Shown here in pieces: positions 8,915-15,515 of a DNA stretch of 64,000 bases (its first letter is position 1; each line of letters begins with the position of its first letter). The translations under genes and the position numbers were made by a program. Source of the DNA: Acidobacteriota bacterium (lineage in GTDB: Bacteria > Acidobacteriota > Vicinamibacteria > Vicinamibacterales > JAKQTR01). The notes under the pieces are model-generated. The model did not search any database. It was given only the letters and a program-made list of their open reading frames with translations, and was not told the origin of the DNA. The DNA lies in the NCBI GenBank assembly GCA_026393675.1, contig JAPKZQ010000014.1, forward strand, positions 1-64,000, read 5' to 3'.

Positions 8915-10303
8915 GTGGCGTCCAGCATGAAAACGGTCCTCATCGTCGACGATGACGAAGGGATGCGCGACACACTGACGGCGATCCTGCACCGCGACTA
9001 CCGCGTGCTGCGGGCATCGACCGGCGAGCACGGGCTGGGCGTCCTTAATCGCGAAACCGTCGACGTGATCCTGCTGGACGTCAGGATGCCAGGCATCAAC
9101 GGGCTGGATGTGCTGCGGCAGGTAAAGGAGACGCAGCGGCTGGTCGAAGTCATCATGATCTCGGCCATCAATGAAATCGAGACCGCCGTCCAGGCGATGA
9201 AGCTGGGCGCGTACCACTACATCACCAAGGATTTCGAGTACGACGCCGTCCTGTCTCTCGTGCGGAACGCGTGTGAGCGGCTCGATCTGAGCCGCAAGGT
9301 GATGACGCTCTCCGCGCAGGTGGCCGACGAGCGCGAGCGCCAGTTCGTCCAGGGCCCGAGCGTCAAGATGCGCGAGATTGCGGAACTGGTGCGCAAGGTG
9401 GCGGGGCTGTCTGCCACGGTCCTGATCCTCGGCGAGAGCGGCACCGGCAAGGAACTGATCGCGCGGATGATTCATCGCGAATCCGACCGGTCCGACGCGC
9501 CGTTCCTGCCGGTGAACCTCGCTGCGATTCCGGGCGAGCTGGTCGAGTCGGCGCTCTTCGGCCACGAGAAGGGGTCATTTACCGGGGCGGTCAGGCAGCA
9601 ACTGGGCAAATTCGAAATCGCCTCTGGCGGAACGTTGTTTCTCGACGAAATTGGCGAACTGAAGCCCGACGTGCAGGCGAAGCTGCTGCGTGCCATCCAG
9701 GAATCCGAAATCGAACGCGTCGGCGGCACCAGATCGATCAAGGTGGATCTGCGAATCATCGCCGCGACCAACGTCGATCTCGAGAAGGCTGTACGGGAAG
9801 GCCGGTTCCGCGAGGATCTCTACTACCGGATCAACGTCATTCCGTTGAAGGTCCCGCCTCTGCGGGAGCGCATCGAGGATATCCCGGAGCTGGCGCTCTT
9901 CTTCCTCTCGCGCTACAACGCGAAATTCAGGAAATCGATCCGCGGGATCAGCGACTCGGCGCTGGCGGTGCTGCAGGCGTATCGATGGCCTGGCAACATC
10001 CGCGAACTCGAGAACCTCGTCGAGCGGCTGGTCGCGGTCTGTGATCAGGATGTGATCGAGAGCGAGAATCTGCCCTACGAGTACCACCTGGAGTCGCTCG
10101 TGAAGCCGGAGACCGCCACCGAGGCGCTGCTCGACAAGGCCTGTGAGACCTTCGAGCGCAATTTCGTCCTCCGGGCGCTGGAGCAGTCCGGCTGGAACGT
10201 GACCGCCACGGCCAGGACCCTCGGCGTGCCGCTGAGCACGCTCAAACACAAGATGGACCGCCTCGACATCCGCCAGATTGCCAGGAAACTGCGCAGCATC
10301 TAG
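8915..10303 (+). CDS. Sigma-54-dependent response regulator (NtrC family)
   Basis: A 462-residue activator: receiver domain with acidic pocket VDDDE and phosphoacceptor Asp near 55 (VILLDVRMPG), AAA+ domain with Walker A GESGTGKE (about 172-179), sigma-54 contact loop GSFTGA (about 220, one change from GAFTGA), Walker B GGTLFLDEIGE, and a Fis-type helix-turn-helix at the end (SGWNVTATARTLGVPLSTLKHK). GTG at 8915 is chosen because GGAGGGA lies 7 nt before it; the ATG at 8927 is 19 nt from that site. It should be phosphorylated by a kinase; the histidine kinase encoded at 13692 at the far end of the following gene cluster is the obvious partner, an inference from position. It presumably activates sigma-54 promoters. 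Confidence 0.92.
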   Translation: MASSMKTVLIVDDDEGMRDTLTAILHRDYRVLRASTGEHGLGVLNRETVDVILLDVRMPGINGLDVLRQVKETQRLVEVIMISAINEIETAVQAMKLGAYHYITKDFEYDAVLSLVRNACERLDLSRKVMTLSAQVADERERQFVQGPSVKMREIAELVRKVAGLSATVLILGESGTGKELIARMIHRESDRSDAPFLPVNLAAIPGELVESALFGHEKGSFTGAVRQQLGKFEIASGGTLFLDEIGELKPDVQAKLLRAIQESEIERVGGTRSIKVDLRIIAATNVDLEKAVREGRFREDLYYRINVIPLKVPPLRERIEDIPELALFFLSRYNAKFRKSIRGISDSALAVLQAYRWPGNIRELENLVERLVAVCDQDVIESENLPYEYHLESLVKPETATEALLDKACETFERNFVLRALEQSGWNVTATARTLGVPLSTLKHKMDRLDIRQIARKLRSI

Positions 10304-10323: not shown

Positions 10324-10377
10324 GGTTGCAAAAATTGTAATCGTCCTGACGGTTCTGGTATCGCAATTTCTGCAACC
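10324..10377. promoter_or_regulatory. 14-bp inverted repeat, candidate activator-binding sites
   Basis: GGTTGCAAAAATTG (10324-10337) is inverted at 10364-10377 with one mismatch. Each arm also reads as a looser dyad GGTTGCA-N5-TGYAAYC. The same core (GCAATTTCTG) recurs at 24456-24474. The position about 200 bp upstream of the radical SAM gene suits an enhancer-type site for the neighbouring sigma-54 activator. A weak -24/-12-like GGTTC..TCGCA at 10351-10365 lies between the arms. Confidence 0.5.
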
Positions 10378-10543: not shown

Positions 10544-10571
10544 TTGTTGGCCCAACGGTTGCATTTATAAT
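10544..10571 (+). promoter_or_regulatory. Sigma-70-type promoter of the radical SAM operon
   Basis: TTGTTG (10544-10549) and a perfect TATAAT (10566-10571) with 16-bp spacing. A further GGTTGCA half-site (10556-10562) sits in the spacer. Start site near 10578, just ahead of the ribosome-binding site and start codon. Confidence 0.6.
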
Positions 10572-10586
10572 ACGGGTGGAGATTGA

Positions 10587-12020
10587 TTGAACATGCAGCC
10601 CTCCGCGTTCAACGTTCGAGTGCCCCTGCCGACGGGCGACGTGTTCCTGATGAACACCTTGACCGACGCGCAGTTGGTCGTCTCGAGCGACGCGGCGCGA
10701 CTGGTCGAACAGCCGAGCGACGCCGACGCGAATGCGGCGAACTCTGGCGAGGACGTGCGCGATGCGCTCGCGACGTTTACCGAACACGGATTCCTCGTCC
10801 AGGATCACGCCTCCGAGCAGGCGGCCCTGGCGTTGCGCTTCAGAGAGTTCCGCGAAGACACCTCGCAGTTGCGCATCACGATTCTGACCACGCTGCAGTG
10901 CAACTTCGCCTGTGAATACTGCTACCAGGGCGACCGCGTGGATGCCGGACGTCCGGCCCCGACGATGTCGATCGAGACCTCGGCCCAGGTTGCGGCGTGG
11001 ATCGCCAGCCAGCTAGATGCGGTCGGTCCCCGCCGGCTGGTGCTCACCTTCTTCGGCGGCGAACCGCTGCTGAACACCGCCGCGATGTTCGACCTCGCCG
11101 AGCGCTGCTGGCAGGCGACTCAGGCGAGAGGCGTGCAGCAACTGGTCAACATCATCACCAACGGCCTGCTTCTGTCTCCCGAGATCGTCGACCGGATGCT
11201 GCCGTTCAGGCTGAACGGCGTCAAGGTGACACTCGACGGCGACCGCGCCACCCACGATCGGGTGCGACCGACACGCGGGGGCCACGGCACCTTCGATCGC
11301 ATCATCGCCAACATCCGGCGCGTGGCCGACAAGACGCCGATCGCGATTGGCGGCAACTTCGACGCCGCCACGGCTGAGCGCTATCCCGCGCTGCTCGACT
11401 TCCTCAAGGACCAGGAGTTCGCCGGCCGCATCTCGAAGGTCGCGTTCAAGCCGGTGATTGCGCCAAAGTCCGCGCAGACGCCGACAGGGTTGATTCCGCT
11501 GACGGCCGTGGGACCAGATCGCCAGCCGCTCAACGGCTCATGTATGAGCGTTGCGGGCAGCGGCAGCGCCGGGGTTTCGGCGTGCGACAGCTGCCACTTC
11601 GCCGACGAGCAGATGGCGATGCTGCGCGAAGAGACCAAGCGGCGCGGCTTCCCCACCGCCGACGGCGTGCACATGGGCCCGTGCGAGCTGTACCGGCGGC
11701 ACTCTCACACGATCGGACCGGACGGATCACTCTACGCGTGCCCCGGCTTTACCGGCGACAACGCGTTGGCGGTTGGCCACATCAGCGCCGGAACCGACGG
11801 CGTGCAGTCCGAGGTGGCCTCACGTTTTGAGCGGCTCGCGCCCTGGCGCCAGTGCGGCGACTGCTCGTTCATTCCGGTGTGCGGAGGCGGTTGCGCGGTC
11901 GCCTCCCACGCGGAACTTGGTGACATGGAAGCGCCGTCGTGTCACAAGCGTGCGTTTGAATCGGCGTTGGTTTCGCTGGCGGAAGATGCCGTCAGCGCTT
12001 TGGCTGGAGGGGTACAATGA
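10587..12020 (+). CDS. Radical SAM/SPASM peptide maturase
   Basis: A 477-residue radical SAM enzyme. The SAM-cluster motif is C105-N-F-A-C109-E-Y-C112. The C-terminus is a SPASM domain for two auxiliary 4Fe-4S clusters, with GPCELY.., LYACPG, CGDCSFIPVCGGGC and a final SC. The first ~90 residues (FNVRVPLPTGDVFLMNT.. FTEHGFLV) look like the small winged-helix leader-peptide-binding region of such maturases. SPASM enzymes of this shape install thioether, C-C or similar crosslinks in ribosomal peptides, or make formylglycine in sulfatases; no sulfatase is nearby, whereas a 29-residue ORF overlaps the stop codon. TTG at 10587 follows GGTGGA by 6 nt; the ATG at 10593 is an alternative. It opens an operon of four genes. 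Confidence 0.9.
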   Translation: MNMQPSAFNVRVPLPTGDVFLMNTLTDAQLVVSSDAARLVEQPSDADANAANSGEDVRDALATFTEHGFLVQDHASEQAALALRFREFREDTSQLRITILTTLQCNFACEYCYQGDRVDAGRPAPTMSIETSAQVAAWIASQLDAVGPRRLVLTFFGGEPLLNTAAMFDLAERCWQATQARGVQQLVNIITNGLLLSPEIVDRMLPFRLNGVKVTLDGDRATHDRVRPTRGGHGTFDRIIANIRRVADKTPIAIGGNFDAATAERYPALLDFLKDQEFAGRISKVAFKPVIAPKSAQTPTGLIPLTAVGPDRQPLNGSCMSVAGSGSAGVSACDSCHFADEQMAMLREETKRRGFPTADGVHMGPCELYRRHSHTIGPDGSLYACPGFTGDNALAVGHISAGTDGVQSEVASRFERLAPWRQCGDCSFIPVCGGGCAVASHAELGDMEAPSCHKRAFESALVSLAEDAVSALAGGVQ

Positions 12021-12106
12021 GGATCACTGTTGTGAAGCGCGGCGAAAAGCCCCCGATCGATTTCTGCCCTTGGATGATCAGCGTCCCACCAGAGGACAGC
12101 AAGTAG
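12017..12106 (+). CDS. Candidate RiPP precursor peptide
   Basis: A 29-codon ORF whose ATG overlaps the TGA of the radical SAM gene (ATGA), so translation is probably coupled. The N-terminal part is MRITVVKRGEKPP, basic and polar, and the C-terminal part contains IDFCPWMISVPPEDSK: a single cysteine next to Pro and Trp, then Met/Ile and a hydrophilic tail. This fits the size and position of a precursor for the preceding SPASM enzyme, with Cys, Trp and their neighbours as candidate modification sites. I do not recognise the sequence as a named family. No protease or dedicated exporter gene follows directly. Being short, it could be a chance ORF; the stop-start overlap and operon position argue for a real gene. 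Confidence 0.65.
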   Translation: MRITVVKRGEKPPIDFCPWMISVPPEDSK

Positions 12107-12143
12107 CGCGGCGACCACGCACACCCTGGGAGGGGGCAGGCAG

Positions 12144-13695
12144 TTGCTACGCCCGCGCGATTTGCATCGCCTCGGGCATCGTCTGGGCACTGTCTGCCCT
12201 CGCGTGCGTATCCGCCACGCCGCCCCCGCCGGCTGCGGGGCCGGCCACCATCGTCATCGGCATTCCGCAAAGCCGCCAGCTCGATCCCTTGCACGGCGTT
12301 CGCTCCCTCGCCAACTGGCTCGCACTCGAACGACTCACCGGCAACGATGCCAGCGGCAGAACGTCTCCGCGACTCGTCGAGAGCTGGTCGGAAGTCGACA
12401 ACGGCCTGACCTGGCGTCTCGTACTCAAGTCGCAACTGCGGTATCAGGACGGTACGCCGCTCGTGGCCGCCGACGTCAAGCGCCAGATCGATGAGGCGCG
12501 CGGTGTTCCAGCCGGTCAGACACTCAGGGTGTGCGTGCCCGATATCAGGGACATCTCGGTCGCTGGCGATCGCGAGGTCGTGATTCGGCTGAACCGCCGA
12601 TGCGCGTTCCTGCTCGACGATCTGGACATGACCATCACCCGGCCGGCCGTCGAGAACCGCCCGGATGTCGGGACGGGCCCGTTTGCGATCACCTCGTCGA
12701 CCAGGGACGAGATCGTGCTGGGGGCGAACCCGTACTACTATCTCGGCAAGCCTGCGATCAGCCGGGTTGTCGTCAAGGCGTATGACACGCTGAGAACCGC
12801 ATGGGCCGAAATGATGCGCGGCCATGTCGATTTCCTGTGGGAGGTCGGGCCGGACACGGCCGAGTTCCTGCGTGACCAGTCGAGCGTCCAGGTGCGTTCG
12901 TATCTCAGCTACTACGCCTACACGATCATCATGAACTCGGCGCGGCCAATCTTCCGCGATCCCACGGTGCGACGGGCGCTGAACATCGGCGTCAACCGCG
13001 CGGAACTGCTGCAGCAGGCGCTCAAGGGCCAGGGCCTGGCCGGCGACGATGCCGTCTGGCCTTCGTTCTGGGCGCGCGATAGCAGCGTGCCGACATGGCG
13101 GTACGACCCGGCCAAAGCGGCCGGCCTGCTTGAAACCGCCCGCCGCGGCAGTGGCATTCGGACCAGCGGGTTGAAAGCCGGAGCGCCGGCGCTCGAGTTT
13201 ACATGCCTGTTGCCGGCGAACTTCGCGATCTATGAACGCCTGGCGTTGCTGGTTCAACGCCAACTGCGGTTGGTCAACGTCGAGATGCGGATTGAGGCGC
13301 TGCCCGCAGATGTCTACAACCGGCGCATCGCGATCGGCGATTTCGACGCGGTGCTGACCAACCTGGTCGGTGGGCCATACCGGACGATTCACTACTGGTT
13401 CTGGCATTCGCCGGGGGTTTCGAAGCGCTGGAACTTCTGGGGCTATCAGGATGCAGCCGTCGACGCGGCGCTCGAGCAGATGCGCGATGCGCCAGACGAT
13501 AATGGCACACGCACCGCGATGAGGGCGTTGAGTCTCGCGCTTCGTGAGAACCCGCCGGCAATCGTGCTGGCATGGGGCGACACGGTTCAGGCCGTCAGCC
13601 GCCGGTTCGCACTACCGGACGGCGCGGCGGGCCGGGATGCGCTTCACAGCCTGAGCCGGTGGCGAATGCGGAATCCCGGGGGCGTGCTGCCATGA
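12144..13695 (+). CDS. Family 5 extracellular solute-binding lipoprotein (peptide-binding type), start region disrupted
   Basis: About 520 residues of an SBP_bac_5/OppA-like protein: IVIGIPQSRQLDPLHGVRSL.., ESWSEVDNGLTWRLVLK, RYQDGTPLVAADVKRQ, GTGPFAI, and FRDPTVRRALNIGVNR. Family members bind oligopeptides outside the membrane. The reading frame lacks a good start: GGGAGGGGG (12129-12136) leads to a TTG at 12144 that is one frame off. Removing one C from the CCC at 12152-12154 would give MLRRAICIASGIVWALSALAC, a convincing lipoprotein-type signal peptide, so a 1-nt sequence error or true frameshift is likely. A TTG at 12070 in the intact frame is the alternative. No ABC permease or ATPase genes follow; instead the stop overlaps the start of a sensor kinase, which suggests a role in sensing. 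Confidence 0.8.
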
Positions 13696-15515
13696 GGACG
13701 CTGCGCGTCAGATTTGCCGTCATGCTGGCGACGGCGGCCGTGGTGCCGCTGCTCACGTACGGCGCGGTGTCGCTTTATTCGCTCAGCAAAGGCACGCGGC
13801 TCACCGTGGAAGCGGGCAACCTCAACGTCGCGCGCCAGGTCGCCGAACAGGTGCGGCGCTACATCTCCACGAACCTCCAGATTCTCCAGGCGCTGGCCGC
13901 AGACCTGGAGAACACGAACCTCACTCCCGAGCAGACCGATCGCATCCTGAAGAACTACGTCCTGCGTTTTCCGGAGTTCCGCGAACTCACGGTGGTCGAC
14001 GGCTCCGGAAGCGCCATGGCGACCAGCCGCCTGGGTCCGCCAGATGTCCTGAAGGCCCCGGAGTTCAAGGAACTCACATCGGTTCGATCCAGGCTGGGTG
14101 CGGCGGCCGGCGGGACGATCGTGGATGGCGTCCGGATGTCGCCCGTATTCGTCGACGGCGACATGTTGCCGACCACGCTTGTGGCCGCGCCGTTAGGCCG
14201 CGGTCAGCAACAGGCCGGATGGCTTGTCGGCGAGTTCAGCATAGAAGAACTCTGGCGGATGGTCGGCCGCATCCGCATCGGCACATGGGGCTACGCGCTG
14301 GTCCTCGGTCCCGGCGGCGAATTGCTCGCGCATGGCAATCCCGAGGAGCGGTCGAGGGTCGCCACCGACGCTCTCGCACGGACACAGGGCGGCGGGCCAC
14401 GCGGCAGCGATCCAACCACCAACGCGATCGTCGATCAATTACGCACGGCTGGCCGGGATCAGGCGGTCGTGCGGGAAGACGAACGACCCACCGGCGGGCG
14501 CCTGCTCGCGGTCGGCGTCGGCATTCCCGATCTCGGCTGGACGGTCGTCGTCTCGCAGCCGACGCGGGAGGCGAACGCGGTGGCCGAACGCTATCGAGAC
14601 ACGCTGGTGGCCGCCATCAGCCTGGCGCTGGTGATCATGATTCTGGTCGGCTCGGTGTGGGGCCGATCGCTCATCACGCCGATCACCGCCCTCATCAAGG
14701 GCACGCAGGCCATCGCCGAGGGACGACTCGACGAGCGGGTCGCGATCGAGTCGAAGTCGGAACTCGGGAGTCTGGGTGCCGCGTTCAACGGGATGGCCGA
14801 TCGCCTCGTGGAACTGCAGGACAACGTCCGCAAGCAGGAGCGCCATGCGATGTTCGGACGCGTGGCTGCCGGTTTGGTGCATGACCTGTCGCACCCGTTC
14901 AAGAACGTCCAGAACAACTGTCGGCTGATGCTCAAGATGCACGACGACCCGGAGTACCGGGAGATGTTCCGCCGGACCGTCGATCGCGAGTTCGGCACGA
15001 TCAAGCGCGTGTTCGAGGATCTCCGCAACATCGCGCGGCCGATGCCGCTCGAGCACTTCCCGCTCGACGTCAACACCCTGGTGGCCGACATCGGTGAGTC
15101 GATGCGCGCCAACGCCGACACGGCGGGCGTAGCGCTCAGTGTGGAACTGGGCAGCACGCGCCTGTACATCCTGGGCGACATGTTCGCGCTCGGCCGCGTC
15201 TGCCGGAATCTGGTGTTGAATGCGATCGAAGCCACCCCGCCACAGGGCAGCATCGTGATGACAACGGCTGCCCTCGACGGAAAGGTCCAGATACGCGTGG
15301 CCGACACCGGATGTGGCATCCCGCCTGAGCGGATCGTCACCATGTTCGAGGATTTCGCGACCACCAAGCGTCAAGGCCTCGGTCTCGGCCTGGCCATCGT
15401 CAAGAAGATCGTCGAGCAGTTGGGAGGAACGGTCAGCGCGTCGAGCGAGGTCGGGCGGGGAACGACGTTCGTGCTGGAGTTCGGGCGAATCTCACCGCCG
15501 GAGGCGGCAGGATAG
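13692..15515 (+). CDS. Membrane sensor histidine kinase
   Basis: A 607-residue kinase: membrane segment (about 12-30), a ~260-residue extracytoplasmic Cache-like sensor region, second membrane segment (SLALVIMILVGSVWG), HAMP linker, histidine phosphotransfer helix with LVHDLSHPFKN (His about 396), and HATPase domain with N box NLVLNAIEAT, DTGCGIPPE and GLGLGLAIVKKI. The ATG overlaps the TGA of the solute-binding protein gene, so the two are translationally coupled. With the sigma-54 regulator at 8915 it probably forms the two-component pair that frames the radical SAM/peptide genes. The signal could be the peptide-loaded binding protein; that is inference from gene order. Confidence 0.92.
   Translation: MRTLRVRFAVMLATAAVVPLLTYGAVSLYSLSKGTRLTVEAGNLNVARQVAEQVRRYISTNLQILQALAADLENTNLTPEQTDRILKNYVLRFPEFRELTVVDGSGSAMATSRLGPPDVLKAPEFKELTSVRSRLGAAAGGTIVDGVRMSPVFVDGDMLPTTLVAAPLGRGQQQAGWLVGEFSIEELWRMVGRIRIGTWGYALVLGPGGELLAHGNPEERSRVATDALARTQGGGPRGSDPTTNAIVDQLRTAGRDQAVVREDERPTGGRLLAVGVGIPDLGWTVVVSQPTREANAVAERYRDTLVAAISLALVIMILVGSVWGRSLITPITALIKGTQAIAEGRLDERVAIESKSELGSLGAAFNGMADRLVELQDNVRKQERHAMFGRVAAGLVHDLSHPFKNVQNNCRLMLKMHDDPEYREMFRRTVDREFGTIKRVFEDLRNIARPMPLEHFPLDVNTLVADIGESMRANADTAGVALSVELGSTRLYILGDMFALGRVCRNLVLNAIEATPPQGSIVMTTAALDGKVQIRVADTGCGIPPERIVTMFEDFATTKRQGLGLGLAIVKKIVEQLGGTVSASSEVGRGTTFVLEFGRISPPEAAG

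Follow-up and report, generated by a model that had tools for sequence, protein, structure and literature searches.

Modified signal peptides are best known from Gram-positive bacteria, and PqqA and MftA are short cofactor precursors. Among radical SAM peptide systems, SCIFF-derived ranthipeptides have been placed in clostridial quorum sensing (Chen et al. 2020, as cited in PMC8102284), and the maturase PapB accepts a single Cys-Xn-Asp motif with n of 0–6 (PMC9413430). Geopeptides and their maturases have NCBIfam models (TIGR04229 and TIGR04280), and no paper mentioning geopeptide or TIGR04280 was found in the open-access literature searched. Here we analyse a window of 64,000 nucleotides (the whole stretch of DNA under study, positions 1 to 64,000 of contig JAPKZQ010000014.1) from an Acidobacteriota bacterium of the order Vicinamibacterales, in which a single-Cys peptide is encoded directly after a radical SAM/SPASM maturase. 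The cassette comprises, in this order, an NtrC-type response regulator, the maturase, one or more peptides, a solute-binding protein of family 5 (SBP5) and a dCache-HAMP histidine kinase. Its features in the window are as follows.

8927–10303, + strand: NtrC-type response regulator (receiver, sigma-54 activation domain and Fis-type HTH, by Pfam), conserved upstream of the maturase.
10326–10340, + strand: candidate activator site 1, TTGCAAAAATTGTAA, an exact match to TTGCARAAATTGYRA, with paired sites in the congener.
10361–10375, − strand: candidate activator site 2, TTGCAGAAATTGCGA, also an exact match to TTGCARAAATTGYRA, with paired sites in the congener.
10547–10563, + strand: sigma-54-type −24/−12 promoter, TTGGCCCAACGGTTGCA, 46 nt before the maturase ATG (matrix p = 0.0004).
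10593–12020, + strand: radical SAM/SPASM peptide maturase, by Pfam PF04055, alignment A1, NCBIfam and whole-chain fold matches.
12017–12106, + strand: 29-residue single-Cys precursor peptide, MRITVVKRGEKPPIDFCPWMISVPPEDSK, by translation, its family in 55 loci with an invariant Cys, and a sequence control.
12070–13695, + strand: SBP_bac_5 solute-binding protein, a probable lipoprotein (WALSALAC), by Pfam PF00496, in 40/40 full loci; its start codon is uncertain within 12070–12160.
13692–15515, + strand: dCache-HAMP-HATPase sensor histidine kinase, by Pfam, in 40/40 full loci, with an ATGA overlap with the SBP gene.

The genes for regulator, maturase, SBP5 protein and kinase lie on one strand and in fixed order in all 40 of the loci long enough to be scored, and this surrounding cassette, with its sigma-54 promoter, is more informative than the peptide alone. 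Mean pairwise identity among loci is 70% for the regulator, 61% for the maturase, 53% for the kinase and 35% for the SBP. The flanks are conserved too (lpd, E2 and lipB upstream, HU downstream), so the locus looks inherited and chromosomal rather than mobile; plasmid-borne spread was considered and rejected, as a plasmid match is absent and the conserved flanking genes give the look of vertical inheritance. At the expected start of the SBP5 gene (12070–12160) there is neither ATG nor GTG. The start is likely a TTG that lies within the peptide gene, or else a rare start codon, and SBP5 translation would therefore be coupled to the peptide.

The ORF at 12017–12106 almost certainly encodes a RiPP precursor of the radical SAM/SPASM maturase, a reading that is strongly supported because members of two phyla keep the peptide next to the maturase. 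The earlier note had proposed this from the letters of the window alone, and its description of the ORF is accurate: the peptide's ATG shares bases with the TGA that ends the radical SAM gene (ATGA, 12017–12020), and the translation has a basic N-terminus and a lone Cys (Cys17) in the context FCPWMIS. The peptide is present in a single copy in the genome. The same note had named the absence of the ORF from close relatives as evidence against a precursor; a small ORF with the family pattern lies just 3′ of the maturase at 54 of 56 orthologous Vicinamibacterales loci with enough sequence. In control sequence drawn from these loci and totalling 1,426,277 bases (1.43 Mb), the pattern occurs at 3 start sites in one frame, and 0.001 matches per region are expected by chance. 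The pattern was fixed, and it was composed after the peptides had been inspected, so that the weight rests on the control and not on the pattern. The difference between the two counts indicates that the ORF is not a chance frame. Two loci are pattern-negative. In one (L053) the peptide is present with a longer tail. In the other (L038) two stop codons break the peptide gene 3′ of the maturase, MKI*VVRRASN*KPAGYCDLWVDGPAMNKK, which may be a decayed copy or the product of assembly errors.

We aligned 65 peptides from 55 loci, leaving out one spurious row (L008_542). The alignment reads M-K-I-x-V-(V/I)-K-K, followed by a variable linker often containing KP, followed by (F/Y)-C-P-(W/F)-x-(I/V)-(D/E). 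The Cys is the sole invariant column (65/65 in Vicinamibacterales, and 8/8 in the Nitrospirota peptides described below), supporting the lone Cys as the reactive residue. Pro occupies Cys+1 in 50/65 Vicinamibacterales peptides; Cys+2 is Trp in 40/65 and Phe in 11/65, and some peptides lack an aromatic residue at both Cys+2 and Cys+3. Asp or Glu is found at Cys+5 in 60/65, and the exceptions are exactly the window's own family of five genomes (L002, L004, L005, L021 and L065), with Ser, Cys, Ala, Thr and Cys at this position. Thus, of the Cys or Trp crosslink suggested in the earlier note, and of the conserved Cys and Trp that it proposed to look for near homologous maturases, the Cys half holds and the Trp half does not: with Trp at Cys+2 in 40/65 and aromatic residues missing from +2/+3 in some peptides, Trp as an essential crosslink partner was rejected and a Trp crosslink is unsupported as a general feature. 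The contrast that it drew between a single Cys and the multi-Cys ranthipeptides is upheld, in that 63 of the 66 rows listed have one Cys and 3 have two (the spurious row included). No model covering the window peptide was found in NCBIfam or PHROGs, and Pfam gave none for the one relative tried. Judged from the sequences, the peptide system is a new family within radical SAM RiPPs, in a sensory context that is unusual and strictly conserved.

A genome scan returned one distant, full-length and strong match to the maturase, on a Nitrospirota contig (34% identity), where the maturase is followed by the peptide MKIIKKGEKKVKSTPVHCTFLIG, an SBP5 protein and a dCache kinase. Seven further Nitrospirota loci are alike, with the peptides MKIVKKGDRKEKGTPTQCLFMIW, MKLQIVKKGERKIKSKPSFCGWYAR, MKIVKKGERKVKIKRAYCTWFVG, MKVIKKGIRKEDLKPVFCQFWLT, MKMKIIKKGDRKENSKPVYCMFFIM, MKIKIIKQGMKKNKPNPSMCPWFIH and MKMKIVKKGERKTRSAPPSCPVFIR. 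An SBP5 protein follows the peptide in 8/8 of these loci and a kinase in 7/8, the eighth (L222) being a short contig; no regulator adjoins the Nitrospirota cassettes. One locus (L223) has two tandem SBP5 genes between its peptide, MKIKIIKQGMKKNKPNPSMCPWFIH, and the kinase, and a single SBP5 gene is found elsewhere. The Nitrospirota peptides are 23–25 residues long, each with one Cys; all eight end exactly at Cys+5, and all eight lack the acid at that position. The shared end point suggests that the reactive unit is probably Cys to Cys+5, to which the Vicinamibacterales peptides would add a tail, and it narrows the possible crosslink partners.

The maturase is 475 residues long from its ATG and 477 from an upstream TTG at 10587, from which its residues are numbered here. 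The CxxxCxxC motif spans residues 105–112, and C105, C109 and C112 are invariant in alignment A1, as are the SPASM cysteines (366, 385, 423, 426, 432, 436 and 452). Three extra cysteines outside these sets, C319, C333 and C336 (about 11541–11594 of the window), are located in a low-confidence loop of the structural model; C319 is invariant and the CxxC pair nearly so, and they possibly form another metal site. Of 193 genomes from the class, 66 encode an orthologue (about 52–81% identity), and every one of these belongs to a single order; 18 of 396 genomes sampled across the phylum do so too, again in that order alone; the named contigs among the matches are labelled Acidobacteria and Vicinamibacterales. 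The best NCBIfam models are those of the geopeptide (TIGR04280), CefB and TIGR04463 maturases, all below cutoff. The nearest solved protein by sequence is the thioether-forming, SCIFF-type maturase CteB (5WGG, E 8e-29), which is also a top match in whole-chain fold: the AlphaFold model (mean pLDDT 77) matches TigE with Z 24.1 and CteB with Z 23.4, N-terminal region included. In the model, the N-terminal region, which resembles that of CteB and TigE, looks like a leader-binding domain on account of its strand-strand-strand-helix order.

A Cys thioether is the leading guess for the modification, because the closest solved relative and several of the closest family models make Cys thioethers. In particular, the n of 0–6 accepted by PapB (NF047865) covers the Cys-X4-Asp/Glu spacing of most members of the present family. 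A Cys-X4-Asp/Glu thioether as a universal rule was nevertheless rejected, since it fits 60/65 peptides and the acid is absent from the window's own family and from all Nitrospirota peptides; the +5 acid is thus not a universal partner, and in this the putative thioether here would differ from those of PapA and SCIFF. Assignment as a multi-Cys ranthipeptide was likewise rejected, since the SCIFF and PapA peptides carry several core Cys, whereas nearly all of the peptides here, including every Nitrospirota one, carry one. With its single Cys, so short a substrate lends itself to tests of radical SAM chemistry.

The cassette is likely under two-component sigma-54 control. Of the 56 regions upstream of orthologous maturases, 44 contain a match at p ≤ 0.01 to a matrix built from 17 sigma-54-type sites; 39 of the 56 had contributed no site to the matrix, and 27 of these 39 match. 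RpoN is encoded in the genome. In Nitrospirota, a sigma-54-type site lies 34–43 nt before the maturase at four loci. Apart from the two inverted sites at 10326 and 10361, the genome contains no exact match to TTGCARAAATTGYRA; a similar pair is present in the congener, and such sites are clear in the closest genomes only. We infer that the neighbouring NtrC-type regulator binds them. A regulon search with the site motif returned eight one-mismatch sites elsewhere in the genome, and no convincing sigma-54 promoter was seen alongside these. Near-perfect palindromes, TTGCARAAACTGCRA, also occur outside the cassette in the same genome (L247, L248, L249, L251 and L254), none with a clear sigma-54 promoter alongside; they are possibly the regulon of the neighbouring or of another regulator.

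In the Acidobacteriota the peptide is always encoded with an enzyme, a lipoprotein, a kinase and a sigma-54 activator, and in Nitrospirota with most of these, which suggests that it is probably a self-made signal. In the cassette we propose, the basic, strand-like N-terminus (MKIxVVKK) would serve as a leader bound by the N-terminal domain of the maturase, and the maturase would modify the invariant Cys, most likely forming a thioether to a residue 1–5 positions downstream. The product would leave the cytoplasm via an unlinked protease or exporter, and the SBP protein would bind it and hand it on to the dCache kinase. Once phosphorylated, the regulator would bind TTGCA-N5-TGCAA-like sites and drive sigma-54 transcription of maturase and peptide, closing a positive feedback loop. 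We give an even chance to the idea that what the SBP-kinase pair senses is the modified peptide, which would then act as an autoinducer. Peptide, enzyme, candidate receptor, kinase and regulator are co-encoded, and a sigma-54-type promoter is present; the binding of the regulator and the identity of the ligand are read from sequence and remain putative. Regulation by radical SAM RiPPs has a precedent in the clostridial SCIFF ranthipeptides, which differ in that the passage of PMC8102284 describing them makes no mention of a binding lipoprotein, a dCache kinase and a sigma-54 activator.

The sensed ligand could also be something other than the peptide, because SBP5 proteins bind many ligand types: peptides, nickel chelates, heme and sugars. 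The SBP and kinase might respond to an external nutrient or metal, for instance a nickel chelate or an oligopeptide, by inducing a maturase and peptide whose product is a metallophore, a redox cofactor or an antimicrobial and not a signal, a substantial possibility that we place somewhat below even. The nearest solved relatives of this SBP include peptide-, nickel- and heme-binding proteins, the very short one-Cys precursor is reminiscent of PqqA, MftA and other cofactor precursors, and a Cys-containing core could bind metal. No permease, exporter, peptidase, TonB receptor, or cofactor-using or other enzyme is conserved with the cassette; the missing exporter and peptidase count against the peptide as ligand, and the missing permease, TonB receptor, exporter and cofactor-using enzyme against an external one. 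Peptide-core distances, however, track SBP distances beyond those of regulator, maturase and kinase (partial r 0.19, p 0.001, by a partial Mantel test, which is prone to false positives), and they still do so when flanking housekeeping genes are also controlled for (partial r 0.19–0.24, p ≤ 0.008, by the same false-positive-prone test), a link in divergence that argues against the external ligand. It is extremely improbable that the ORF is a relic of translational coupling or a chance frame between the maturase and SBP genes, with no functional peptide. It does overlap the maturase stop and sit between two genes, but its amino-acid sequence with the invariant Cys is kept across the order and in a second phylum, tandem peptide copies occur at several loci (four are listed in L018), and at other loci the peptide lies up to about 270 nt from the maturase. 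Furthermore, 5 of the 8 codons that differ between the window peptide and that of a congeneric genome are synonymous, and all 3 nonsynonymous changes fall 3′ of FCPWMI.

The remaining alternative, which we regard as very improbable, is that peptide and maturase both belong to the geopeptide family. TIGR04280 is the best NCBIfam match of the maturase and the nearest model overall, both systems join a radical SAM/SPASM maturase to a short peptide with a basic, strand-like N-terminus, and their gene contexts are related. The match, however, scores 243.7 bits against a cutoff of 400, where a Nitrospirota relative scores 271.8 bits and a true Nitrospirota member (L228) 567. TIGR04229 does not match the window peptide or three relatives, a result that is weak by itself because even CC peptides that look genuine get a low score or none from this model. 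Membership in the geopeptide family was rejected on these two grounds. In addition, geopeptides carry CC and precede the maturase, whereas the peptide here has one Cys and follows it, and the binding protein of the geopeptide loci in Nitrospirota is of the PF04392 type, whereas here it is SBP5.

We return, then, to the peptide as a self-made signal, and tentatively, at somewhat less than an even chance, propose a new class of Gram-negative signalling in which a radical SAM-modified single-Cys RiPP would act as a pheromone, a periplasmic binding lipoprotein would read it and dock on a dCache kinase, and a sigma-54 activator would provide feedback, with the geopeptide system as a parallel branch using another binding-protein fold. 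If this is true, abundant bacteria of soil, groundwater and sediment use a simple and testable peptide language. The geopeptide-type loci that we observed in Nitrospirota (L225, L227, L228 and L234) encode a PF04392-type binding protein, a histidine kinase and an NtrC-type or related response regulator, and where peptides were found (L225 and L228) they contain CC and precede the maturase. These geopeptide loci keep the RiPP, the maturase, a binding protein and the two-component system, so that the pairing is kept and the binding-protein fold exchanged; the swapped fold amid otherwise unchanged logic argues against an external ligand for the present cassette. The comparison suggests that geopeptides are sensory RiPPs as well, and the sensed-peptide reading, if true, would suggest a function for this orphan family.
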